64,000 nt of DNA. Source: Alteriqipengyuania abyssalis (GTDB taxonomy: Bacteria; Pseudomonadota; Alphaproteobacteria; Sphingomonadales; Sphingomonadaceae). Both the position numbers and the translations under genes were made by a program. Positions 978-11,075 of the stretch are shown piece by piece (the stretch's first letter is position 1; each line of letters begins with the position of its first letter). The stretch spans positions 558,001-622,000 of the forward strand of contig NZ_JAHWXP010000002.1 in assembly GCF_019857185.1 (NCBI RefSeq), read 5' to 3'. The notes below the pieces were generated by a model. It did not search any database, was not told the DNA's origin, and saw nothing but the letters and a program-made list of their open reading frames with translations.

Positions 978-2654
978 ATGTCGAACCTCCTCGCTCCTCC
1001 CCCCGCCAGCGGCACTGCCCGCTCCGCCCTTTCACTCGATCGCCGCAGCCTGCTTGCGGGTGGCATCATGGGGGCCGGCCTGCTCGCCATGCCGCTCTCC
1101 GCGCAGGTTGGCGCGAAGGGCTTCACCCACGGCATCGCCAGCGGCGAACCGAGCCAGGACGGCGTGCTGCTGTGGACCCGCTTCGTCGGCTCGAACGAGG
1201 CGAAGCTGGCGTGGCAGGTGAGTGACAATGCCGAATTCACCCGCGTGCTGGCGGAGGGCGAGACCCTCGCCACGCCGGGCAAGGACTGGTGCGCCAAGGC
1301 GCAGGTCAGCGGGCTCGATCCCGATAGCTGGTACTACTACCGCTTCATCGGGCCGGATGGCTCCCGCTCCGCCACCGGGCGCACGCGCACCCTGCCGCAG
1401 GGGCCGACCGGCCGGTTCCGGATGGGCGTGTTCTCCTGCTCGAACCTCGGCTTCGGCTATTTCAACGCCTATGGCCACGCGGCCCAGGCCAACGACCTCG
1501 ACCTGCTGGTGCATCTGGGCGACTATTACTACGAATACGACGCACAGCATTACCCGACCCCCGACCAGATCGTGCCGGGCCGGGTAGACGCGCCCGAGAA
1601 CGAGATCGTGCAGCTGGCCGATTACCGCCTGCGCCACGCGACCTATCGCGCCGATCCGGACCTCCAGCGGCTGACGCAGCTCTATCCGATGATCCTGGTG
1701 TGGGACGATCACGAGACCGCGAACGATTCGTGGGAAGGCGGGGCGGAGAACCACCAGCCCGAAACCGAAGGGCCGTGGGACGCGCGCAAGGCCGCCGCGA
1801 TGCGCGCCTATCGCGAATGGCTGCCGGTCTCGGACGATCCGTGGAAGGCCTATCAGGTCGGCGATCTCGCCACGCTGTTCCGGCTCGAAACGCGGCTCAC
1901 CGCGCGGTCCGAGCAGCTCGATGTGGCGAAGGTGCTGGCGGGCAAGTCCACGCCCGAAGAGATGATGGCTGCGCTCAAGGCGTTCCACGATGGCGCTTGG
2001 GCCGATCCGTCGCGCCAGATGATGGGTGCGGCGCAGGAGGCGTGGCTGGCCGACGGGCTGAAAGCCTCGACCCGCAGCGGCACGCGCTGGCAGGTGCTGG
2101 TCCAGCAGGTGCTGATGGGCAATCTCAACACGCCGACCGGACTGGCGGACGCGTTGCCCAAGTCGATGCCCGATGCGCTGCGCCAGCGGCTGATGGCGGG
2201 GGCGATGGCCTCTGCTGCGGGCATCCCGTTCAACATGGACGCGTGGGACGGCTATCCCGCCGCGCGCAAGCGGGTGTTCGACGCCGCGCTGGCCGCCGAT
2301 GCCAATCTGGTGGTGCTGGCAGGCGATACGCATAACGGCTGGGCGTTCGACCTCGCGCAGGACGGCACGCCGGTGGGCGTCGAGTTCGGCGTGTCTTCGG
2401 TGACCTCGCCCGGCTTCGAAGGCTATCTGCCGCAGATCCCGACGCCGTTCCTGGAGCGCGCTCTGGTCGACGCCAACCCGCAGCTGCAATGGGCGGATAC
2501 CTCGCGGCGTGGCTACATGGCGGTCGAGCTGACCCCGCAGGCGGCGAGCTGCGAATGGCGCTTCGTCTCGGGTGTGCGCCAGCGCGGCACCGCGCTGGGC
2601 GGCACGCACAATATGGCGAGCGCGCTCGGGTCGAACACGCTCGCCATGGGGTAA
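978..2654 (+). CDS. phoD: Alkaline phosphatase D family protein
   Basis: 558 residues. The N-terminus carries a twin-arginine signal (DRRSLLAGG, Arg22-Arg23, then a hydrophobic stretch ending near residue 43), so it is probably exported folded by Tat. Metal-site motifs of the PhoD metallophosphatase fold follow: HLGDYYYEYD near residue 180, WDDHETAND near 245 and LAGDTHNGW near 448. PhoD enzymes are Ca/Fe-dependent phosphomonoesterases or diesterases that release phosphate from organic esters. Length is normal for the family. A second, unrelated phosphatase of the PhoA type lies at 55399-56883. The upstream region carries a tandem repeat and a G-quadruplex motif. Confidence 0.93.
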   Translation: MSNLLAPPPASGTARSALSLDRRSLLAGGIMGAGLLAMPLSAQVGAKGFTHGIASGEPSQDGVLLWTRFVGSNEAKLAWQVSDNAEFTRVLAEGETLATPGKDWCAKAQVSGLDPDSWYYYRFIGPDGSRSATGRTRTLPQGPTGRFRMGVFSCSNLGFGYFNAYGHAAQANDLDLLVHLGDYYYEYDAQHYPTPDQIVPGRVDAPENEIVQLADYRLRHATYRADPDLQRLTQLYPMILVWDDHETANDSWEGGAENHQPETEGPWDARKAAAMRAYREWLPVSDDPWKAYQVGDLATLFRLETRLTARSEQLDVAKVLAGKSTPEEMMAALKAFHDGAWADPSRQMMGAAQEAWLADGLKASTRSGTRWQVLVQQVLMGNLNTPTGLADALPKSMPDALRQRLMAGAMASAAGIPFNMDAWDGYPAARKRVFDAALAADANLVVLAGDTHNGWAFDLAQDGTPVGVEFGVSSVTSPGFEGYLPQIPTPFLERALVDANPQLQWADTSRRGYMAVELTPQAASCEWRFVSGVRQRGTALGGTHNMASALGSNTLAMG

Positions 2655-2660
2655 GGTTAG

Positions 2661-3590
2661 CTATTTGGCGGCGGCCGCGCGGATTTCGGCGCGGACGATC
2701 TCCGGCTGGTCGAGCTGGACGAAGTGCAGCGAGTTGTCGACCGGCACCAGGCGGACGCCGGGCAGCGCGGCATAGTCGGTCGCGTAGCGCTCGATCGCCA
2801 TCTCGCGGTACTGGCCGTTGGCCATGTGGACGACGGTGACCGGCATCTCGAGGCCTGCGATTTCGCTGCGCAGGTCGGTCATGGTATCCACGTACACCAG
2901 CTCTGCGACCGCCAGCGGCTCGGCGTCGAGCGACCAGTTGGCGATGCGCACGCGGGTCGCCTCGTCGATCGACATGCCCGCCGCGCCCGCGCCGCTGGTG
3001 GCGTTGGCAAGGCCCGCCGCGCGCATCTGCTCGGCTCCCGCGATCATCATGTCGCGCATCTGCTTCGCCTGCGGCTCGACCTTCTCCAGCGTCATGTCGG
3101 GCGCGAAGACCATGCCGAAGAAGGGCAGCGAATCGAGAATGACGAGGCTCTTCGCCTGATCCGCATGGGCCAGCCCGAATTCCATCGCGATCAGCCCGCC
3201 AAGGCTGTGGCCGACGATGGTGGCAGGGCCGAGATTGCGGGCGGCGAGATCGGCGGAGATGTCCGCCACGATCCCGTCGATCACCCCCGCGCTCTCGTTC
3301 GCTGTGCCCCGTTCGCCTGCGAACCCGCGCACCTCGACGGTCAGCACGCGGTGGTCGTCGGCCAGCGAGGCGACCGTGTCGTCCCACACCGCAGCCGGGG
3401 TCGACATGCCGGGGATCAGCACGACCACAGGGCCGGTGCTGCCGTAGAGGCGGGTGCGGATGTGGTCGTGCTGCACCGCGTCGTCGGCCGGGGCGGCCTG
3501 CTGGGCATGGGCGTGATAGACCGGTGCGGCAGGTGCCATCAGGGCGAGCGCAAGGGTTGCGGTCGCGATGGCCGGGCAGAATCGTTTCAT
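2661..3590 (-). CDS. Exported alpha/beta hydrolase
   Basis: 309 residues with a Sec signal peptide (basic MKRF start, hydrophobic core, AHA-Q cleavage region near residue 30). The mature part is an alpha/beta hydrolase: PGMS oxyanion region near 60-63, nucleophile elbow GHSLGG with Ser129, and a C-terminal NSLHF His near 290. It is likely a periplasmic esterase or lactonase-like enzyme; the substrate is unknown. It lies 27 bp downstream of the small XRE regulator and is probably the last gene of that operon. Confidence 0.85.
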   Translation of the reverse strand: MKRFCPAIATATLALALMAPAAPVYHAHAQQAAPADDAVQHDHIRTRLYGSTGPVVVLIPGMSTPAAVWDDTVASLADDHRVLTVEVRGFAGERGTANESAGVIDGIVADISADLAARNLGPATIVGHSLGGLIAMEFGLAHADQAKSLVILDSLPFFGMVFAPDMTLEKVEPQAKQMRDMMIAGAEQMRAAGLANATSGAGAAGMSIDEATRVRIANWSLDAEPLAVAELVYVDTMTDLRSEIAGLEMPVTVVHMANGQYREMAIERYATDYAALPGVRLVPVDNSLHFVQLDQPEIVRAEIRAAAAK

Positions 3591-3617
3591 CGGTCTGGTC
3601 CTTGGTTGGTGGCGGGC

Positions 3618-3809
3618 TCAGTCCCGCAGGAAAATCTCTTCGATCGTGAGTTCGAACACCTCGGCGATCTGGAAGGCTAGGGGGAGCGAGGGGTCGTAGC
3701 GGCCGGTCTCGATCGCGTTGACACTCTGGCGGCTGACGCCGAGTTCCTCGGCGAGTGCCTGCTGGCTCCAGTTGCGCTCGGCGCGCAGGACCTTGAGGCG
3801 GTTCTTCAT
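3618..3809 (-). CDS. Small XRE-family HTH transcriptional regulator
   Basis: 63 residues, almost entirely one Cro/CI-type helix-turn-helix: QQALAEELGVSRQSVNAIE at residues 20-38 is the HTH, followed by the usual TGRYDPSLPLAFQIAEVF helix. There is no sensor domain. Its ATG overlaps the stop of the upstream membrane-protein gene by 4 bp (ATGA), implying translational coupling. Small XRE proteins paired with multi-pass membrane proteins usually repress their own operon. The two matched palindromes at 4602-4618 and 4655-4671 upstream of the operon are the obvious candidate operators (inference). Confidence 0.9.
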   Translation of the reverse strand: MKNRLKVLRAERNWSQQALAEELGVSRQSVNAIETGRYDPSLPLAFQIAEVFELTIEEIFLRD

Positions 3810-4429
3810 GACTCGTCGCCCAGGCCATCATTGGCGCGCCGGTCCGCCAGCGCCATCCAGCACTGGCCGAGCCCCATGCCGATCGCCCAGACGGGAAAGA
3901 CCCACCAGGCCCAGATGTGCGGGACCACTTCGAACGTTTCGAGAAAGCCCCAGAAAGTGCCCAGCGTCAGCACTCCGCCGAGCCCGAACAGGCTCGCCAT
4001 GATCGCACGATGACGCAGGAACTCGTCCTCTTCCTCGATCAGGTAGCGCGCCATGGTCCAGATCATGCCCAGCACGGGGATGACGGGCAGCAAGGCGATC
4101 AGGAAGCTCTCGATCTCGCTCAGATCGACCCGGTCCGCGATCGTCACCGCGATGCCGAGCCCCAGCATGTAGCCGAAGCTGGCAAGCAGGAAGCGGCGGG
4201 TGTAGCGAACGATCGCCGGGCTGAGATGACCGGTGGAGCGCTGCTTGGCGAGGCTCGCCCGGGTGAGCGGAACGATCTGCAGCATCGCGATCACCATCAG
4301 GATGAAACCGGTAGTGCTGCCTATCGCATCGGTCATGCGCAGGACCGAGATGATCCCGAAGGCGACAAAGATGCCCGCAGCCCAGAAGGCCGGGCGCCGA
4401 CGCAGCGGGAGCCGGGCCGCCTCGCTCAC
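3806..4429 (-). CDS. Multi-pass inner-membrane protein of unknown function
   Basis: 207 residues with a GTG start at 4429, chosen because it overlaps the TGA of the preceding small gene (GTGA) and because the same frame further upstream reads as antisense-like Arg/His sequence. About six hydrophobic segments are visible, for example FWAAGIFVAFGIISVL, FILMVIAMLQIVPL, LIALLPVIPVLGMIW and the Trp-rich HIWAWWVFPVWAIGMGLGQ. A charged EEEDEF loop lies between two of them. No catalytic motif was recognised. It sits between a 54-residue membrane peptide and the XRE regulator. Confidence 0.8.
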   Translation of the reverse strand: MSEAARLPLRRRPAFWAAGIFVAFGIISVLRMTDAIGSTTGFILMVIAMLQIVPLTRASLAKQRSTGHLSPAIVRYTRRFLLASFGYMLGLGIAVTIADRVDLSEIESFLIALLPVIPVLGMIWTMARYLIEEEDEFLRHRAIMASLFGLGGVLTLGTFWGFLETFEVVPHIWAWWVFPVWAIGMGLGQCWMALADRRANDGLGDES

Positions 4430-4590
4430 GACGACTTCCTCAGGCTGCAGCGCGTGCCGGTGGCGACTGCCAGGAACGGCAGGGTCAGAATGGCGGCGAT
4501 GGTCGCCCAGTCGGGCAGCACGTCGGCGATGTTGAGCAGCGCGACGATGATGATGGCGGCGCCCCAGAGGACAGGTGCGATGGCTTTCAT
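4426..4590 (-). CDS. 54-residue membrane protein, first gene of the XRE operon
   Basis: The ATG at 4590 is preceded by AAGGAA about 8 bases upstream, and the frame runs 54 codons to a TGA that overlaps the next gene's GTG. The product begins MKAIAPVLWG and has two hydrophobic helices (roughly residues 5-22 and 29-44) separated by a short NIADVLPDW loop, ending in a basic tail (TRCSLRKSS). The good ribosome site, tight coupling and operator-flanked promoter support a real gene. Function is unknown. Confidence 0.65.
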   Translation of the reverse strand: MKAIAPVLWGAAIIIVALLNIADVLPDWATIAAILTLPFLAVATGTRCSLRKSS

Positions 4591-4601
4591 GGTCAAGGTT
4601 C

Positions 4602-4618
4602 CTTTCTTCTATGGAAAG
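4602..4618. promoter_or_regulatory. Candidate operator 1 (CTTTC-N7-GAAAG)
   Basis: A 17-bp dyad: CTTTC (4602-4606), seven bases, GAAAG (4614-4618), followed after five bases by TTGTCA (4624-4629). It overlaps the ribosome site and the expected transcription start of the minus-strand XRE operon. A minus-strand TTGACA lies at 4649-4644. A second copy with the same geometry is at 4655-4671. Confidence 0.6.
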
Positions 4619-4654
4619 CATACTTGTCACGACTCACGCGCTGTGTCAACCACC

Positions 4655-4671
4655 CTTTCCATATATGAAAG
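4655..4671. promoter_or_regulatory. Candidate operator 2 (CTTTC-N7-GAAAG)
   Basis: CTTTC (4655-4659), seven bases, GAAAG (4667-4671), then five bases and TTGTCA (4677-4682), exactly as at operator 1. The two centres are 53 bp apart, about five helical turns, so both face the same side of the DNA. This copy lies about 20 bp upstream of the -35 element of the divergent threonine-leader promoter. Confidence 0.6.
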
Positions 4672-4691
4672 CGCCCTTGTCAAATATCGTG

Positions 4692-4727
4692 CTGGACCTC
4701 GCGCGCTTGCGGCCTATATTCCGGCCC
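4692..4727 (+). promoter_or_regulatory. Promoter for the threonine-rich leader transcript
   Basis: CTGGAC (4692-4697) and TATATT (4715-4720) are separated by 17 bases, a good sigma-70 arrangement. A start 7-8 bases after the -10 falls at 4727-4728, the first base of the leader ATG. The transcript would therefore be leaderless, which agrees with the absence of any Shine-Dalgarno sequence before that ATG. Confidence 0.55.
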
Positions 4728-4799
4728 ATGGCCATCGTGATCGCCTCGACTACGACCACCACGACCTCGGGCAACCGGGGGCGGATGGTCGCGTATTGA
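4728..4799 (+). CDS. Threonine-rich leader peptide (attenuator) upstream of thrS
   Basis: A 23-codon ORF, ATG 4728 to TGA 4797-4799, starts MAIVIAS, continues with six consecutive Thr codons (ACT ACG ACC ACC ACG ACC, 4749-4766) and ends SGNRGRMVAY. This composition is like the E. coli thr-operon leader peptide, where scarce charged tRNA-Thr stalls the ribosome. The next genes are an exoribonuclease and thrS, so the expected sensor, charged tRNA-Thr, matches the product downstream. It has no ribosome site and is probably translated from a leaderless mRNA. Overlapping alternative RNA stems begin within its last codons. Confidence 0.72.
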   Translation: MAIVIASTTTTTTSGNRGRMVAY

Positions 4800-4832
4800 G
4801 ACGCGATTACCGCCACCCGGGTTCGGGTGGCG
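4780..4832 (+). promoter_or_regulatory. Mutually exclusive RNA stems of the thr-leader attenuator
   Basis: Stem A pairs GGCGG (4780-4784) and TCGCG (4789-4793) with CGCGA (4802-4806) and CCGCC (4810-4814), enclosing the leader stop codon. Stem B is a perfect 9-bp hairpin, CGCCACCCG (4811-4819) with CGGGTGGCG (4824-4832), loop GGTT. Both use 4811-4814, so only one can form at a time. A further pairing, GCGCCG (4835-4840) with CGGCGC (4868-4873), ends just before the weak ribosome site of the next gene. No U-tract follows stem B, so control could act by factor-dependent termination or by masking translation. Confidence 0.6.
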
Positions 4833-4885
4833 CTGCGCCGGCTTCCCGAACCTGCAACCGGATTTGACGGCGCGGCAGGGATCCC

Positions 4886-5392
4886 ATGCGGTATTACATC
4901 GACACCGAATTCAACGGCACCGACGGCCAGCTGCTGAGCCTTGCGCTCGTCCGTCAGGATGGTGTGCATTTCTACGAGGTTCTGCATGCGCACGAGCTGA
5001 TCGTGCCGTGGGTGCAAGAGCATGTCGTGCCGTATTTCGACCGGGAGCCGGTCACGCGGTTGCAGGCGGTCAAGAAAATGCAGAAGTTCCTCAGGAAAGA
5101 GGAAGGTCCGCATGTTTTTATCGCCGACTGGCCCGAAGACCTTGTGCACTTCAACCGCATGCTGCTGCGCGATCAGGGCAAGCGCAATGATCCATTCCGC
5201 TATGCTTGCCTGCTGCTCAGCTTGCCCGGCTTCGATACCGCTGGCGCGAGTGCGGTGCCGCACAACGCGCTCGCCGATGCACAGGCGCTGGCGGCCTATG
5301 TGGAATGCAATCTGTCTGGCGAGCGGGGCGGCATGGAGGAGGCCGACCTGGCCCTGCTTCGCAATACTTGCGGCGAGAGCACCGTTGCCTAG
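4886..5392 (+). CDS. 3'-5' exoribonuclease, DEDDh, Rv2179c-like
   Basis: 168 residues. It opens with YYIDTEFNG (Asp6, Glu8), has an Asp in IADWPED (Asp81), and ends the fold with HNALADAQAL (His126, Asp131). That is the full DEDDh set of a two-metal exonuclease, in the compact form known from Mycobacterium Rv2179c, which trims RNA 3' ends. It is the first full-length gene after the Thr-rich leader and precedes thrS by 70 bp, so the two may share a transcript. Why an RNA-trimming enzyme should be co-regulated with threonyl-tRNA synthetase is unclear; tRNA end turnover is one possibility (inference). Confidence 0.85.
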   Translation: MRYYIDTEFNGTDGQLLSLALVRQDGVHFYEVLHAHELIVPWVQEHVVPYFDREPVTRLQAVKKMQKFLRKEEGPHVFIADWPEDLVHFNRMLLRDQGKRNDPFRYACLLLSLPGFDTAGASAVPHNALADAQALAAYVECNLSGERGGMEEADLALLRNTCGESTVA

Positions 5393-5462
5393 CCGCGCTG
5401 TGCCGACCATAGGCGCTTGAACCTCATTCTCCCGAACACTGCTCGGACGAAAGCACGATACA

Positions 5463-7460
5463 ATGACCGAACTGCTCAAGATCAGCCTGCCCGACGGCTC
5501 CGTGCGCGAAATGCCGGAAGGCTCGACTCCGGCGGATGTCGCCGCCGCGATCGGCCCCGGTCTCGCCAAGGCGGCGATCGCTGCCCGCGTGAACGGCGAA
5601 CTGCGCGACATCACGCGGCCCTTCGAAGGCGACGCGGAGCTTGCGCTGGTGACCAGCAAGGATGTCGACGAGGCGCTGGAACTGGCCCGGCACGACTATG
5701 CGCACGTGCTGGCCGAAGCGGTGCAGAACCTGTTCCCCGGCACGCAGATCACCTTCGGCCCGGCGACCGATGACGGCTTCTACTACGACTTCGCTCCCGC
5801 AGAGGGACGCGGGGCCTTCACTGAGGAAGACCTGCCGAAGATCGAGGAGGAGATGCGCCGGATCATCGCGGCGGATACGCCGCTCGAGCGTGAGGTGTGG
5901 ACCCGCCAGCAGCTGATCCAGTGGTTCAAGGACCATGGCGAGAGCTTCAAGGCCGAATGGGCCGCCGAGCTTCCCGAGGGCGAGGAACTGACGATCTACC
6001 GCCAGGGTGACTGGCTCGACATGTGCCGCGGGCCGCACCTTGCCAGCACCGGCAAGCTCGACCCACAGGCGTTCAAGCTGACGCGCGTGAGCGGTGCCTA
6101 CTGGCGCGGCGACCAGAAGAACGCGATGCTCAGCCGCATCTACGGCACCGGCTGGCTCAACAAGAAGCAGCTGAACGAGCATCTCCACCGGCTGGAGGAA
6201 GCCGCCAAGCGCGACCACCGCAAGCTGGGCCGCGAGATGGACCTGTTCCACCTTCAGGAAGAGGCGCACGGAAGCGTGTTCTGGCACCCGCAAGGCTACA
6301 AGATCTGGCGGCAGCTCGAAGCCTACATGCGCCGCAAGATGGACGGTGCCGGCTATCGCGAGATCAAGACCCCGCAGGTGATGGACGCGCGCCAGTGGGA
6401 GCAGTCCGGCCACTGGGGCAAGTATCGCGAGAACATGTTCGTCATCCCCGACGAGGTGCCCAATACCGAGGACGAGGGCGAGCTGGTGTCCAAGGACGCC
6501 GACTGGATGGCGCTCAAGCCGATGAACTGCCCCGCGCACGTGCTCGTCTTCAAGCAGGGCATCACCTCCTATCGCGAACTGCCGATCCGGCTGGGCGAGA
6601 TGGGCTGCTGCCACCGCAACGAACCGCACGGCGCGCTTCACGGGCTGATGCGCGTGCGCCAGTTCACGCAGGACGATGCGCATATCTTCTGCACCGAAAA
6701 ACAGGTGGTCGAGGAAGTGCGCGCCTTCATCGAGCTGGCGGACGCGGTCTATCGCGACTTCGGCTTCAAATACGCGATCAAGCTGGCGCTGCGCCCCGAA
6801 CAGCGCTTCGGCTCGGATGCCGACTGGGACAAGGCCGAGCAGGAACTGCGCGATGCGGTGGCCGAAGCGGGCATGATGAACGAGGAATACGGCTGGGAAG
6901 AGCTGCCCGGCGAAGGCGCGTTCTATGCCCCCAAGCTCGAATGGCACCTGACCGACGCGATCGGGCGGACCTGGCAGGTCGGCACGATCCAGGGCGACCG
7001 CGTTCTGCCCGAACGGCTCGACGCGAGCTATATCGGCGAGGATGGCGAGAAGCACCGCCCGGTGATGCTCCACCGCGCGATCTTCGGTTCGTACGAACGC
7101 TTCATCGGCATCCTGATCGAGCATTTCGCCGGGAAGCTGCCCGTGTGGCTCGCGCCGACGCAGGCGGTGGTCGCGACGATCGTTTCGGATGCGGACGACT
7201 ACGCCAGTGAAGCGCTGGCCAAGCTGCGGGCGGCAGGAATTCGCGCCGAGAGCGATCTTCGCAACGAGAAGATCAACTACAAGGTGCGCGAGCACTCGCT
7301 CGCCAAGGTCCCGCACCTGCTGGTGGTCGGCAAGCGCGAGGCGGAGGAAGGCACGGTCGCGGTCCGCACGCTGGGCGAGAAGGAACAGCGGGTGATGAGC
7401 CTCGACGAGGCGATCGCGATGCTGCGCGACGGCGCCACCCCGCCTGATCTGCGCGACTGA
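5463..7460 (+). CDS. thrS: Threonine--tRNA ligase
   Basis: 665 residues, normal for full-length bacterial ThrRS. The N-terminal TGS domain (about 1-63) precedes the editing domain, which shows HDYAH (His77, His81) and DMCRGPHL of the Ser-tRNA(Thr) hydrolysing site. The class II catalytic core carries MNCPAHV (zinc Cys), the motif 2 region [21 protein letters not shown] and a C-terminal anticodon-binding domain from about residue 560. It charges tRNA-Thr. In E. coli thrS is controlled by translational autoregulation. Here a Thr-rich leader 660 bp upstream suggests attenuation instead. A weak TTGAAC at 5414 could add a private promoter. Confidence 0.97.
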
Positions 7461-7464
7461 CCCC

Positions 7465-8211
7465 TTGGAGATCTTCGCCGGTTTCACCTGGCTGCAACTC
7501 GCAGTCGCGCTGGGCACGGGGCTCACGGCCGCGTTCATTCGCGGGCTGGCGGGCTTCGGGCTCGCGATCCTGCTGGTGCCGGTTCTCGCGCTGACGCTGA
7601 GCCCGGTCGAGGCGGTGCTGACCACCAATGTGGTCGCGCTGCTGATCGGCGGGCTCGAACTGCCGCGCCTGCTGCGCGAGGCGGAGCGCAGCGTGTGGAC
7701 GATCATCGTGCTGGTCTTGCTGACCACGCTGCCGGGGCTCGCGCTGCTCGCCGCGACTCCGCCGAACATCGCGCGCCTGCTGATTGCGCTGGTCGCGCTT
7801 TCCGCCTTTGTCGCGATGCTGTTCCCGGTCCGCGAGCCGGAGCGGCCCGGCATGGTGACCACCGGGCTGACCGGCGTGGCGACCGGTATTCTGACAGGCT
7901 TTGCCGGGATGCCCGGGCCTCCGGTGGTGCCCTATTATGTCGGGCGTGCGATTCCCCGGCAGATGGCGAAAAGCTCGATGATCCTGATCTTCACCTTCGC
8001 AGCGCTGATCGGGATCGGATCGGGCATTGCGCTCGGGCGAATGGAATGGCGGCTGGCGCTGCTGGGCGCAATGCTGCTGCCGGTCGTGATCCTGGGCACA
8101 TGGCTGGGGCGCAAGGCGGACGGGCATGTGTCCGACCGTGCGTGGCGTATTTTCGTAGGCTTGGTGCTGGCGGCAGCGGCGCTGGCCGCGCTGCTCAAGC
8201 TGGTCGTCTAG
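7465..8211 (+). CDS. TauE/SafE-type sulfite exporter family permease
   Basis: 248 residues from a TTG start 5 bp after thrS; there is no nearby ATG. The protein is almost wholly hydrophobic, with seven to eight transmembrane segments in two repeats. The family signatures RGLAGFGLAILLVPVLAL near residue 25 and LTGFAGMPGPPVVPYYVG near 137 are both clear. TauE/SafE proteins move sulfite, sulfoacetate or other organic anions across the inner membrane. The substrate here is unknown, and linkage to thrS looks positional. Confidence 0.85.
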   Translation: MEIFAGFTWLQLAVALGTGLTAAFIRGLAGFGLAILLVPVLALTLSPVEAVLTTNVVALLIGGLELPRLLREAERSVWTIIVLVLLTTLPGLALLAATPPNIARLLIALVALSAFVAMLFPVREPERPGMVTTGLTGVATGILTGFAGMPGPPVVPYYVGRAIPRQMAKSSMILIFTFAALIGIGSGIALGRMEWRLALLGAMLLPVVILGTWLGRKADGHVSDRAWRIFVGLVLAAAALAALLKLVV

Positions 8212-8327
8212 AAGACCGGGACGAAGCGCTCGGCCACGATCAGCGCGATCGCGCAGGCCGATACGATGATCGTGCGGGCGGCGGAAAGCGCCTCGAACCG
8301 GCGGGCGATGGCGATGGGGCGGGTCAT
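8208..8327 (-). CDS. Possible 39-residue membrane peptide
   Basis: An ORF starting ATG at 8327 (MTRPIAIARR...) with one hydrophobic helix (IIVSACAIALIVA) and a stop that overlaps the end of the convergent permease gene by 4 bp. It lies 35 bp downstream of the agmatine deiminase gene on the same strand. There is no convincing ribosome site, so it may be chance. Confidence 0.35.
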   Translation of the reverse strand: MTRPIAIARRFEALSAARTIIVSACAIALIVAERFVPVF

Positions 8328-8362
8328 GCGCACCAGCTTGGCGGGCGCGCCTTAAGAAAGTC

Positions 8363-9343
8363 CTACCGCGTCGGAGCGCTGGGCATCTGCATGCTGGCGC
8401 AATGGAAGCCGCCACCGCCCGCCAGCACCGCGCGCATCGGCAGGCCGATCGCTGAGCGATCCGGAAACAACGCATCGATCGCCGCGACCGCGCCTTCGTC
8501 CTGCGGCACACCGAAGGTCGGCACCGCGACAATCGAACTGGCGATCAGAAAATTGGCGTAGCTGGCAGGCTCGACCCAGTCCCCGCGCGTGACGAGGCCG
8601 GGTGAGGGTATCGCCGCGACCGTCAGCCCCGCGGCTTCGAGCCGGGCCTTGGCGTCGGCATAAACATCCGCGTTGGGGTCGTCGCTGCCGAAGGGCTCGG
8701 CCAGCGCGACCATACCCGGAGCGACGAACCGCGCGAGGTTGTCGACATGGCCGTCGGTATGGTCGTTGAGCAGCCCGTCGCCGAGCCACACCACACGATC
8801 CAGCCCCAGATCGCGCGCCAGCCGCTGCTCGATCTGCTCGCGACTTAGCGAGGGATTGCGATTGGGGTTGAGCAGGCATTGCTCGGTGGTCAGGACCGTG
8901 CCCTGTCCGTCAGTGTCGATCGCACCGCCTTCGAGGATCCAGTCGGGCCGGTCGAGCGGCAGGCCCTCGTCCCCGGCGAGTTCCGCCCCGATCGCCTCGT
9001 CGCCCTTCATCAGGTATTTGCCGCCCCAGCCGTTGAAGCCGGGGCGCACCGCGCGGCGCGTGGCGCCGTCGAAGCCGGTCAGCGGGCCGGTGTCGCGCAG
9101 CCAGACATCGCCATAGGTGCGCCGTTCGAGATCGACCGCGCCCGTCACCAGCGCCTTCGCCCGCCCTTCGTTGGCGGCATCGCGGACCAGCAGGCGGACC
9201 TCCTGCCCGCTCTCGGCCACCGCATTGGCGAAGGCTGCGATCTCCTCCTGCGCGGGGGCGAAGGCATCGCCCCACTCGTCGGGATCATGCGGGAAGCCGA
9301 TCCACAGCCAGTCCTGCGGCTCCCACTCTGCGGGGAGCCGCAT
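8363..9343 (-). CDS. aguA: Agmatine deiminase
   Basis: 326 residues from ATG 9343, preceded by AGGAGCAGG; a longer frame to 9433 would run into the upstream peptidase gene. It shows the N-terminal MRLPAEWEPQDWLWIGFPH, the guanidine-binding LEGGAIDTDG, the catalytic-His NDHTDGHVDN segment, and near the C-terminus GGGGFHCASMQMP with the nucleophilic Cys. These are hallmarks of the agmatine deiminase branch of the PPAD family, which hydrolyses agmatine to N-carbamoylputrescine and ammonia on the way to putrescine. No partner carbamoylase is in the window. Confidence 0.92.
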   Translation of the reverse strand: MRLPAEWEPQDWLWIGFPHDPDEWGDAFAPAQEEIAAFANAVAESGQEVRLLVRDAANEGRAKALVTGAVDLERRTYGDVWLRDTGPLTGFDGATRRAVRPGFNGWGGKYLMKGDEAIGAELAGDEGLPLDRPDWILEGGAIDTDGQGTVLTTEQCLLNPNRNPSLSREQIEQRLARDLGLDRVVWLGDGLLNDHTDGHVDNLARFVAPGMVALAEPFGSDDPNADVYADAKARLEAAGLTVAAIPSPGLVTRGDWVEPASYANFLIASSIVAVPTFGVPQDEGAVAAIDALFPDRSAIGLPMRAVLAGGGGFHCASMQMPSAPTR

Positions 9344-9374
9344 TGCGCGCACCTGCTCCTGGGTCACGAGCCGA

Positions 9375-11075
9375 TCAGCAACCTGCGTTGGTCGCGGCGC
9401 AGCTTTCGTCACGAATGCCGCGGAATTCGTCACCCTCGACCCAGTTGGGCCAGCTGGTCGACATCGCCATCATCCGGCCGAGACGGTAGTAGAGCTGAAG
9501 ATCGGCCATCACGCCCGACCAGTCCCAGTTCTCGTCGAACTCGTCCTTGGGGCCGTGGTAGCGGTTGTCGCGGTATTCCTTGGCAACCGCCGCCCCGGCT
9601 TCACGCCCGCCTTCGACCAGATCCTCACCGCCGTCGAGATAAAGCATCGGTACGCCCTGCTTGGCGAAGGGGAAGTGGTCGGAACGGTAGTAGTACCCCG
9701 CTTCCGGATTGGGATTGTCGGTCGCTATCCGGCCATCGCTATCGAGCGCGGCCTTGAGGAACTCGTCCAGCTGCGACTTGCCCGGGCCGACCACCGTCAC
9801 GTCGCGCGCGGGGCCAGCGATCAGGAAGGCGTCCATGTTCACCCCGCCAACCGTCTGGTCGAGCGGGAAGACCGGGTTCTGCGCGTAATAGGTCGAGCCG
9901 AGCAGGCCCTGTTCCTCTGCGGTCACCGCGAGGAACACCATGCTGCGATCCGCCGCGCCCGCCTTCGCCTGCGCTTCGGCCAGCGCGACCAGCGCTGCTG
10001 TGCCGGTGGCATTGTCCACCGCGCCATTGCAGATGTCGTCGCCGTCATCGGCAGGCGTGCACCGGCCAAGGTGATCCCAGTGCGCGGTGTAGAGCACGTA
10101 TTCCTCAGGCCGCTTGGTGCCCGGAAGAATACCGATCACGTTCTGTGACATGTATTCGCGGGTCTCGTTGGCGAAGCTGGTCGACGCCTGCACGTCCAGC
10201 GGCACCGCCTTGAAATCCTTCTTGCGCGCAGCTTCCTTCAGCTTGGCGAGATCCTTGCCCGCCGCAGCGAAGATTTTCTGCGCGACATCGTTCTGGATCC
10301 AGCCGTTCATCTCGGTCAGCGCCGGCGCGTTCTCGCCCCGCTGGGGGTAGGCCTGCGGGCCCGACCAGCTGCTTTCGACGACGTTCCAGCCGTAGGAGGC
10401 AGGCTCGGTCTCGTGGATGATCAGCGCGGCTGCGGCTCCCTGCCGGGCGGCCTCTTCAAACTTGTAGGTCCAGCGCCCGTAATAGGTCATCGCCTTGCCG
10501 TTGAACGGCCCTTCGAGATCCTCGGCACCGAAATCGGGATCATTGACGAGGATGACCGCGGTCTTCCCCTTCATGTCGAGCCCTTCGTAATCGTTCCAGC
10601 CGCGCTCGGGCGCGTTGATGCCGTAGCCGACGAACACCAGTTCGCTGTTGTTGATCCGGGTGCGCGGGGTCTCGCGATAGCTTACACCGACCCAGTCCTT
10701 GCCATATTCGAACGCCATCCCGCCGTCCTTGCCGCCGGTGATGGAAAGCGGCGCGAAATCGCTCCCGGTGATTTCGACCAGCGGGACGTCCTGCGTCCAC
10801 TTGCCGTCGTTTCCAGGCTGGAGGCCGGCCGCCTCGAACCGCTGCGTCAGCAGTTCGACGGTTTTCTTCTCGCCTTCGGAGCCGGGCATGCGGCCTTCGA
10901 ACTCGTCGGACGACAGCTCGCGGGTGACATCGACCATCGTCTTTTCGGAGATGTCGCCATCGGCAATCTCTGGAATGTCGAGCGTGTCGTCATTCCCGTC
11001 CGAACCGGACAATACGGCGGCATCGCAACCGGCAAGGGCGAGGGCGGCGGCCGCCACGACAAGAATGCGTTTCAT
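9375..11075 (-). CDS. M28 family metallopeptidase, lipoprotein
   Basis: 566 residues from ATG 11075 (GGAGAACC upstream). It begins with a lipoprotein signal ending LALAGC (Cys17), so it is lipid-anchored in the envelope. A protease-associated (PA) domain insertion is likely between about residues 130 and 300. The M28 zinc-aminopeptidase core follows: YTAHWDHLG, GAVDNATGTAALVALAE, TAEEQGLLGS, VNMDAF and RSDHFPFAKQGVPMLYLDGG supply the dinuclear zinc ligands and general base. It probably trims peptides in the periplasm. The deiminase gene follows 31 bp downstream. Confidence 0.92.
   Translation of the reverse strand: MKRILVVAAAALALAGCDAAVLSGSDGNDDTLDIPEIADGDISEKTMVDVTRELSSDEFEGRMPGSEGEKKTVELLTQRFEAAGLQPGNDGKWTQDVPLVEITGSDFAPLSITGGKDGGMAFEYGKDWVGVSYRETPRTRINNSELVFVGYGINAPERGWNDYEGLDMKGKTAVILVNDPDFGAEDLEGPFNGKAMTYYGRWTYKFEEAARQGAAAALIIHETEPASYGWNVVESSWSGPQAYPQRGENAPALTEMNGWIQNDVAQKIFAAAGKDLAKLKEAARKKDFKAVPLDVQASTSFANETREYMSQNVIGILPGTKRPEEYVLYTAHWDHLGRCTPADDGDDICNGAVDNATGTAALVALAEAQAKAGAADRSMVFLAVTAEEQGLLGSTYYAQNPVFPLDQTVGGVNMDAFLIAGPARDVTVVGPGKSQLDEFLKAALDSDGRIATDNPNPEAGYYYRSDHFPFAKQGVPMLYLDGGEDLVEGGREAGAAVAKEYRDNRYHGPKDEFDENWDWSGVMADLQLYYRLGRMMAMSTSWPNWVEGDEFRGIRDESCAATNAGC

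Follow-up and report, generated by a model that had tools for sequence, protein, structure and literature searches.

A candidate leaderless threonine-codon attenuator upstream of thrS in Alteriqipengyuania abyssalis and other Sphingomonadaceae

A short reading frame with six consecutive threonine codons, followed by a series of RNA hairpins, precedes thrS in Alteriqipengyuania abyssalis within the stretch of 64,000 nucleotides analysed here (contig NZ_JAHWXP010000002.1, positions 558,001 to 622,000; referred to as the window, with coordinates counted from its first letter). This observation is confirmed, and comparison among relatives establishes that the Thr-codon reading frame exists, that it stands before thrS and that the pairings of two alternative structural states covary. 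Judged from the sequences, the element is quite probably a ribosome-mediated attenuator which would sense charged tRNA-Thr and control thrS, here as an exonuclease-thrS operon. A leaderless Thr-codon attenuator of thrS was the core idea of a preliminary description of this DNA, and it is strongly supported by the comparison and the covariation. The Sphingomonadaceae would accordingly offer a candidate mode of thrS control unlike the autoregulation of Escherichia coli, and the family provides numerous natural leaders whose sequences covary and whose seemingly leaderless mRNA carries a his-like relay.

Leader reading frame, promoter and distribution

The promoter elements, the leader reading frame and the downstream genes are as follows.

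4693 to 4698, forward strand: -35-like hexamer TGGACC of the putative leader promoter (promoter scan)
4715 to 4720, forward strand: -10 hexamer TATATT; the start would fall on or beside the leader ATG
4728 to 4799, forward strand: leader peptide ORF MAIVIASTTTTTTSGNRGRMVAY, 23 codons plus TGA, probably with leaderless translation
4749 to 4766, forward strand: six Thr control codons ACT ACG ACC ACC ACG ACC, codons 8 to 13 of the leader ORF
4886 to 5392, forward strand: gene for a putative Rv2179c-like DEDDh exoribonuclease of 168 residues, between leader and thrS
5463 to 7460, forward strand: thrS, threonyl-tRNA synthetase (TIGR00418, 642 bits), the conserved target of the leader

The peptide of 23 codons with six Thr codons in a row, as originally described, was borne out at 4728-4799, with the Thr codons at 4749-4766. 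Across the six frames of the whole 64 kb window, the leader ORF is the single instance of a run of at least five Thr. In the leaders found upstream of thrS (46 loci, by eye) the peptide typically ends in RGRxVA or a similar sequence, and it varies widely outside the Thr run and this RNA-constrained RGR end. Regarding codon usage, ACU made up 62 of 256 leader Thr codons versus 17 of 498 in the first 840 nt of thrS from the same 38 non-redundant loci (p 1e-17), an enrichment of about sevenfold, and ACU plus ACC made up 189 of 256 versus 246 of 498. Since ACU and ACC are both read by tRNA-Thr(GGU), the leader may sense that isoacceptor; alternatively, the ACU preference may reflect a constraint on the RNA sequence itself. 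That attenuators may be built with control codons biased to the most sensitive isoacceptor is described in the available portion of PMC1183508.

TGGACC and TATATT are separated by a spacer of 16 nt, and the -10 box ends (4720) seven nt before the leader ATG. The claim that a promoter starts on this ATG gained from the relatives rather than from the window, where the pair is the sole sigma-70-like match in 2600-9600 against a chance expectation of 0.8 +/- 1.0 and is, taken alone, within chance. The match is supported because the place of the -10 box is kept: of 38 leaders, 32 have 6-8 nt between the best -10 hexamer and the ATG, and 37 have 4-9 nt (counts given with no shuffled control). (Note that the promoter scan of the relatives imposed a spacing of 16-19 nt, so that the presence of a -35 element there is no independent evidence.) A Shine-Dalgarno (SD)-like motif was seen in 3 of 38 leaders. 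With the -10 box at 6-8 nt from the ATG in most of these leaders, the leader mRNA is probably leaderless, and transcription would start on the ATG. Just upstream of the leader promoter, the intergenic region of the window contains an inverted repeat, TATGGAAAG at 4610-4618 and CTTTCCATA at 4655-4663, and two TTGTCA boxes at 4624-4629 and 4677-4682; locus L005 shows a similar arrangement. These elements may serve as an operator, either for the divergent gene or for the leader.

The distribution was determined in two sets of thrS loci from the closest relatives with a few species in common, the first comprising the best 80 among the matches listed and the second the best 30 of 199 family genomes. 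The nearest thrS among the matches listed was that of Citromicrobium sp. UBA3494 (Sphingomonadales), with 97% identity over 279 residues, in a scan which may leave out records very near the window. Of the 110 loci, 46 have a short Thr-rich ORF ahead of thrS, picked by eye from the ORF lists, at a distance of about 180-235 nt, and of 720-736 nt in the window's genus. The 46 leaders gave 44 rows (alignment A1) after removal of L137 (a duplicate of L045) and L032 (start not alignable); L112, L113, L061 and L132 were dropped before alignment A2, leaving 40 rows and, after a filter at 80% identity, 38.

Among 296 genomes of the order, 90, from 23 of 80 genera, matched a covariance model of the leader, with one match each and all in the window's family; some of the matched sequences had trained the model and match by construction. 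Of the 90 genomes, 37 also occur among the family genomes scanned for thrS, and for 35 of these the position of thrS was listed; the match lay directly upstream in 35 of 35, among which comparison by hand found the exonuclease gene between leader and thrS in G000 and G059. In the first set, 27 of 79 loci matched the model at E <=0.001 (L094, with only 101 nt upstream, was omitted); these are mostly loci used in training, and they include one, L034, which lacks the Thr ORF. Alignment of homologous thrS loci, which had been proposed as a check for a conserved Thr run and covarying stems, thus returned the run in 46 of 110 loci and five covarying pairings, but 52 of 79 loci were without a model match. 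A class-wide element is not supported: with stricter filters, 4 of 385 genomes of the class matched, all in the window's family.

Several further observations were made at loci with no typical leader. L034 carries at 2335-2447 a degenerate leader in which an hp2-like hairpin is kept and the Thr-run ORF is lost (model E 2e-4). In L043, L056 and several other Sphingomonas loci with no Thr leader, a -10 region resembling TTGCCTATAT was seen by eye about 65 nt before thrS, which looks like a joint replacement of promoter and leader. Among thrS loci from other families, 9 of 28 had a Thr-rich short ORF upstream under a lax test (3 Thr in 8); the ORFs of L192, L176 and L174, located 322, 181 and 138 nt upstream of thrS (e.g., MRTHPVLRSTATTTTTATGGRWRMRA), appear leader-like by eye and are possibly independent Thr leaders of other alphaproteobacterial families. 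A recurring inverted-repeat-like motif is found at 5400-5416 of the window, as GTGCC...GGCGC, and in many of the loci L031-L140 some 35-60 nt ahead of thrS. By eye it reads TGTGCCATGGCGC in Novosphingobium and Erythrobacter relatives and GGCATAAGCC in Sphingomonas, and it occurs with and without the Thr leader; it could be a second control element.

Alternative RNA pairings and the modelled switch

The segments of the leader RNA are, in order, S1 (after the Thr codons), S2 (the last codons), S3, S4, E, S5 and E'. They form the following pairings, for which z refers to the partner-swap test described below.

4765 to 4780, forward strand: hp1, S1 (4765-4770) with the start of S2 (4775-4780), a protector or pause hairpin inside the ORF (z -3.2)
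4775 to 4820, forward strand: S2:S3, antiterminator-like pairing of 4775-4784 with 4810-4820, containing stem A (z -3.6)
4811 to 4832, forward strand: hp2, S3:S4, identical with stem B (z -5.0)
4819 to 4852, forward strand: S4:S5, alternative pairing of 4819-4827 with 4844-4852, which excludes hp2 and competes with hp3 (z -9.6)
4832 to 4876, forward strand: hp3, E (4832-4841) with E' (4866-4876), terminator-like, with no U-tract here (z -6.5)

The preliminary description had named two stems, A (4780-4814) and B (4811-4832), the former excluding the latter. Stem B (CGCCACCCGGGTTCGGGTGGCG) is real and the exclusion holds, but the two stems are only part of a relay of hp1, hp2 and hp3 versus S2:S3 and S4:S5. 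Stem A is the distal half of the longer S2:S3 pairing between CCGGGGGCGG (4775-4784) and CCGCCACCCGG (4810-4820), which comprises 10 bp with one bulged base (-21.9 kcal/mol) and is mutually exclusive with stem B. Additions to the earlier picture are hp1 inside the ORF, the S4:S5 pairing, and hp3, which lies immediately ahead of the exonuclease start.

The leader RNA folds better than its shuffled versions (z -3.58, with 0 of 200 as good). In the partner-swap test, duplex energies with own and with swapped partners were compared across 38 leaders less than 80% alike, irrespective of the relatedness of the leaders. Swapping weakened all five pairings (z -3.2 to -9.6; 7 of 5000 permutations at the very most did equally well), and the own partner was the better one in 34 of 38 leaders for hp1, 24 of 38 for S2:S3, 27 of 38 for hp2, 35 of 38 for S4:S5 and 29 of 38 for hp3. 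The control pairings S1:S5, S2:E' and S3:S5 were not weakened (z -0.5, 0.1 and -0.6). The extra hairpin and the alternative pairings on either side of it (S2:S3, hp2 and S4:S5) thus all covary by this measure.

Regarding the alignment columns of the three hairpins hp1 to hp3, 84.8% of the cells were paired and 13 pairs showed double changes, with 49 double-change cells. Shuffles gave 16.0 such cells, and none of 500 reached 49; slid versions gave 12-31. For S2:S3, which is GC-rich and conserved, 89.9% were paired, with 11 double-change cells versus 2.0 in shuffles, none of 500 of which came up to 11; counted as doubly changed pairs, however, it was equalled by 21 of 500 shuffles, and slid versions had up to 9 double-change cells, so that the column evidence is weaker here than for the hairpins. 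S4:S5 was tested by partner swapping rather than by column counts because the S5 and E' columns are out of register in some rows of the MAFFT alignment. Taken together, the comparative evidence favours selection on both sets of exclusive structures, and the five pairings appear to form two exclusive states in a relay like that of the his attenuator.

The effect of a ribosome was modelled by folding with the 5' part of the RNA hidden. For the stalled state the hidden part ran about 12 nt beyond the start of the last Thr codon, and for the released state about 12 nt beyond the stop codon. In the window, the stalled state gave 8.9 pairs for S2:S3, 0.0 for hp2, 7.9 for S4:S5 and 0.0 for hp3, and the released state gave 8.0 pairs for hp2 and 9.0 for hp3. 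Averaged over 44 leaders, hp3 had 6.4 pairs when released and 2.7 when stalled. Stalling cost hp3 more than 3 pairs in 27 of the 44 leaders, compared with 52 of 440 shuffled ones; the drop was not above 3 pairs in 17 of 44, and in 5 of 44 hp3 gained more than 1 pair. Within the window's genus the full modelled switch is seen in the window leader only: in L031, L112 and L113 stalling removes hp3 and hp2 is kept rather than S2:S3, and in L114 hp3 is absent even when released.

The position of the stall and the length of the RNA both matter in the model. Only stalls at Thr codons 11-13 of the window leader abolish hp3, and stalls at codons 8-10 leave 8.8-9.3 pairs. If the RNA is extended so that it ends at 4892-4930, only 3.4-8.2 pairs of hp3 remain in the released state; S4:S5 of the stalled state becomes weaker once the end lies at 4905 or beyond. 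As hp3 is weaker with longer RNA, the clean switch is seen while RNA polymerase is just past hp3. In this computation, a ribosome stalled on the Thr codons and one at the stop codon set mutually exclusive pairings.

The proposed mechanism would run as follows. Transcription would start on the leader ATG. When Thr-tRNA is plentiful, the ribosome would pass the Thr run, reach the stop codon and cover S2; S3 would then pair with S4 (hp2), S5 would remain free and E would pair with E' (hp3), upon which expression would stop, most likely through premature transcription termination. When Thr-tRNA is short, the ribosome would stall on the Thr codons and cover S1, so that S2:S3 and S4:S5 would form, hp3 would be absent and the downstream genes would be expressed. 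Of this scheme we infer where transcription starts, that the ribosome stalls, how the output is produced and how the cell responds physiologically.

Output step, downstream genes and rival explanations

A U-tract is lacking after hp3 in the window, where the next ten bases contain 2 T; the window-genus leaders scored, L111 and L114, have 2 and 1 T in these ten bases. A pattern scan of the window found no terminator-like site at hp3. Among the relatives, at least four consecutive T follow hp3 in 7 of 38 leaders (L051, L077, L099, L101, L105, L110 and L133; by eye), and in most leaders the sequence downstream of hp3 is C-rich with short T stretches; several leaders without an exonuclease gene have zero or one T. 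By analogy, the output step would most likely be premature transcription termination, with Rho or another output left as alternatives. The short or missing U-tracts, as in the Streptomyces thrS leader, raise the question of how GC-rich attenuators end transcription.

The preliminary description had placed a DEDDh exoribonuclease and threonyl-tRNA synthetase downstream of the leader. For thrS this holds; for the exonuclease the DEDDh likeness is weak and the gene is not an ancestral component. Its product (4886-5392) resembles Rv2179c DEDDh exoribonucleases over residues 1-60 (PDB phmmer E 0.003), scores 12.9 bits against PF16473 (cut-off 27) and matches phrog_2259, labelled RNase H, at 1.2e-22. 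A TauE-like gene follows thrS. Homologues of the exonuclease occur in 43 of 199 family genomes, and the neighbourhoods of 30 of these 43 were inspected, with flanking sequence of some 1.5 kb, or less in the case of L010 and L026. In 5 of the 30 (L001-L005), namely four genomes of the window's genus in the draw and G059, thrS lies beside the exonuclease within about 1.5 kb; in the other 25 there is no thrS within the flanks. The exonuclease is therefore rejected as the ancestral partner of the leader, which in the other leader loci examined directly precedes thrS. The leader of G059, MAKATITTTTNTTSGNRGRSVAA, has the SGNRGR end common to the window's genus. G131, from the genus of G059, has its leader directly before thrS and is absent from the 43 genomes with an exonuclease homologue. 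From the few loci with thrS beside the exonuclease and from G131, the exonuclease gene is taken to be a lineage-specific insertion or co-transfer and no part of the ancestral leader-thrS unit. The locus would then show how insertion of a nuclease gene parts a conserved leader-thrS pair. That low charged tRNA-Thr raises the exoribonuclease together with the synthetase in the window's lineage, with an output independent of an intrinsic terminator, is a doubtful proposition to which we give a low probability; if it is true, the charging of one tRNA would be linked to RNA turnover.

In a first rival explanation the sensor and relay are the same, and the output in the window's lineage is not intrinsic termination: Rho might terminate transcription in the stretch that is not translated, or hp3, which ends beside the ribosome-binding site of the exonuclease, might affect translation. 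Position 4876 closes the 3' arm of hp3 and is adjoined by AGGGA (4877-4881), which is followed by the exonuclease ATG at 4886, and this layout speaks for such an output, as do the low T counts and the lack of a terminator-like site. However, several of the leaders without the exonuclease are equally or more T-poor. An effect on translation by simple sequestration of the exonuclease SD is opposed by the folding, in which stalling does not free the SD: its unpaired probability was lower for stalls at Thr codons 10-13 than in the released state, and about equal for Thr 8. Sequestration by hp3 is therefore not supported, and a non-intrinsic output of either kind is considered unlikely, although it carries more weight than the remaining rivals. 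One of these holds that the attenuator is ancestral and works in relatives, and that it has become vestigial in the window's genus since insertion of the exonuclease separated the leader from thrS. The missing U-tract in the window and L114, the modelled switch which is incomplete in L031, L112 and L113 and fails in L114, and the decay seen in L034 would all fit a decayed element, whereas the window's genus and G059 retain the Thr run and, by reading of the sequences, the complementarity of S2 to S3 and of S4 to S5, and the folding model does produce a switch for the window; we regard decay as very improbable.

Two further explanations have next to no probability. What maintains the ORF might be a peptide or small RNA that acts in trans, as with peTrpL and rnTrpL, and not cis control of thrS; a precedent is rnTrpL, whose 5' end is the trpL ATG and which acts in trans, as stated in the available portion of PMC7298713. 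The wide variation of the peptide outside the Thr run and the RGR end and the position of the element beside thrS in 35 checked genomes speak against a purely trans function, and a trans role may exist in addition to cis control of thrS. A chance ORF with chance hairpins would be helped by the ease with which GC-rich sequence gives stems and by the promoter match, which alone is within chance, but is countered by the conservation, the covariation and the single match per genome next to thrS. The cis-acting attenuator of thrS remains the preferred reading.

Comparison with known systems

No covariance model of Rfam matched the leader, including Thr_leader, and an Rfam identity was rejected: there was no match at the gathering threshold in the window and none at E <=1 in 4600-5000. 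E. coli thrL (Rfam Thr_leader) has a run of Thr codons, together with Ile codons, and acts by attenuation of the thrABC biosynthetic genes. The window leader has the Thr run and, probably, attenuation in common with it and differs in its target. In E. coli, control of thrS itself is exerted by ThrRS, which acts on its own mRNA, and involves no Thr leader peptide; control of thrS is thus shared with the window leader and the mode is different. This autoregulation is mentioned in the available portion of PMC2965389.

In the literature on Sphingomonadales and other Alphaproteobacteria no thrS Thr leader was found described, and a prior prediction is possible; none is mentioned for these groups in the available portions of PMC2965389, PMC4833913 and PMC2330054. 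The earlier statement that no such leader was described for this group is in agreement with this, and an example outside it exists in Streptomyces lividans, as the available portion of PMC8079986 indicates. Leader peptides before alphaproteobacterial tRNA synthetase genes are on record for other amino acids and in other taxa: the uORFC-8-2 motif upstream of cysS in Rhodobacterales, described as ribosome-mediated attenuation (PMC8632094, available portion), and a leader peptide before trpS in Caulobacter (PMC4117421, available portion). The term thrS does not appear in the main text of either paper. The leaders of cysS and trpS resemble the window leader in their place before a synthetase gene and differ in amino acid and taxon. 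A paper by Lopatovskaya et al. from 2010 reportedly concerns attenuation of aminoacyl-tRNA genes, so that a prior prediction of thrS attenuation may be found there.

The his attenuator alternates, segment by segment, between two sets of pairings. In E. coli and Salmonella it has an extra hairpin between the pause hairpin and the terminator, according to the available portion of PMC1183508. The window leader shares with it the run of control codons beside the first hairpin and the extra hairpin before the terminator position; unlike the his leader, it would sense Thr, would control a synthetase rather than biosynthesis, is probably leaderless, has a weak U-tract or none, and has S5 in the loop of hp3, not in an arm of it. 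The rnTrpL RNA of Sinorhizobium meliloti starts with the ATG of its leader ORF (PMC7298713, available portion). It is an alphaproteobacterial leader-peptide RNA with a start at the ATG, as we infer for the window; it differs in its amino acid (Trp), in its target (trpE(G) biosynthesis) and in its trans-acting products, which have been described in Sinorhizobium meliloti (PMC7298713).

The closest counterpart is the leaderless thrL before thrS in Streptomyces lividans TK24, which has a hairpin that lacks a U-rich tail and which is proposed to act as an attenuator (PMC8079986, available portion). Like the window leader, it encodes a Thr leader peptide before thrS and has a hairpin without a U-rich tail, and its transcript is leaderless, as that of the window probably is; it differs in belonging to an Actinobacterium, in having 18 residues with two Thr (MKRVRPFLETTPGFVPAR), and in the one hairpin that the available text reports (PMC8079986). 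The peptide stretch TTPGF is common to L109, L123 and the published Streptomyces thrL in the available part of that report, and its recurrence may be due to chance, to a shared hairpin constraint or to kinship. Against this background, the sphingomonad element would add one more case to a familiar type of switch.
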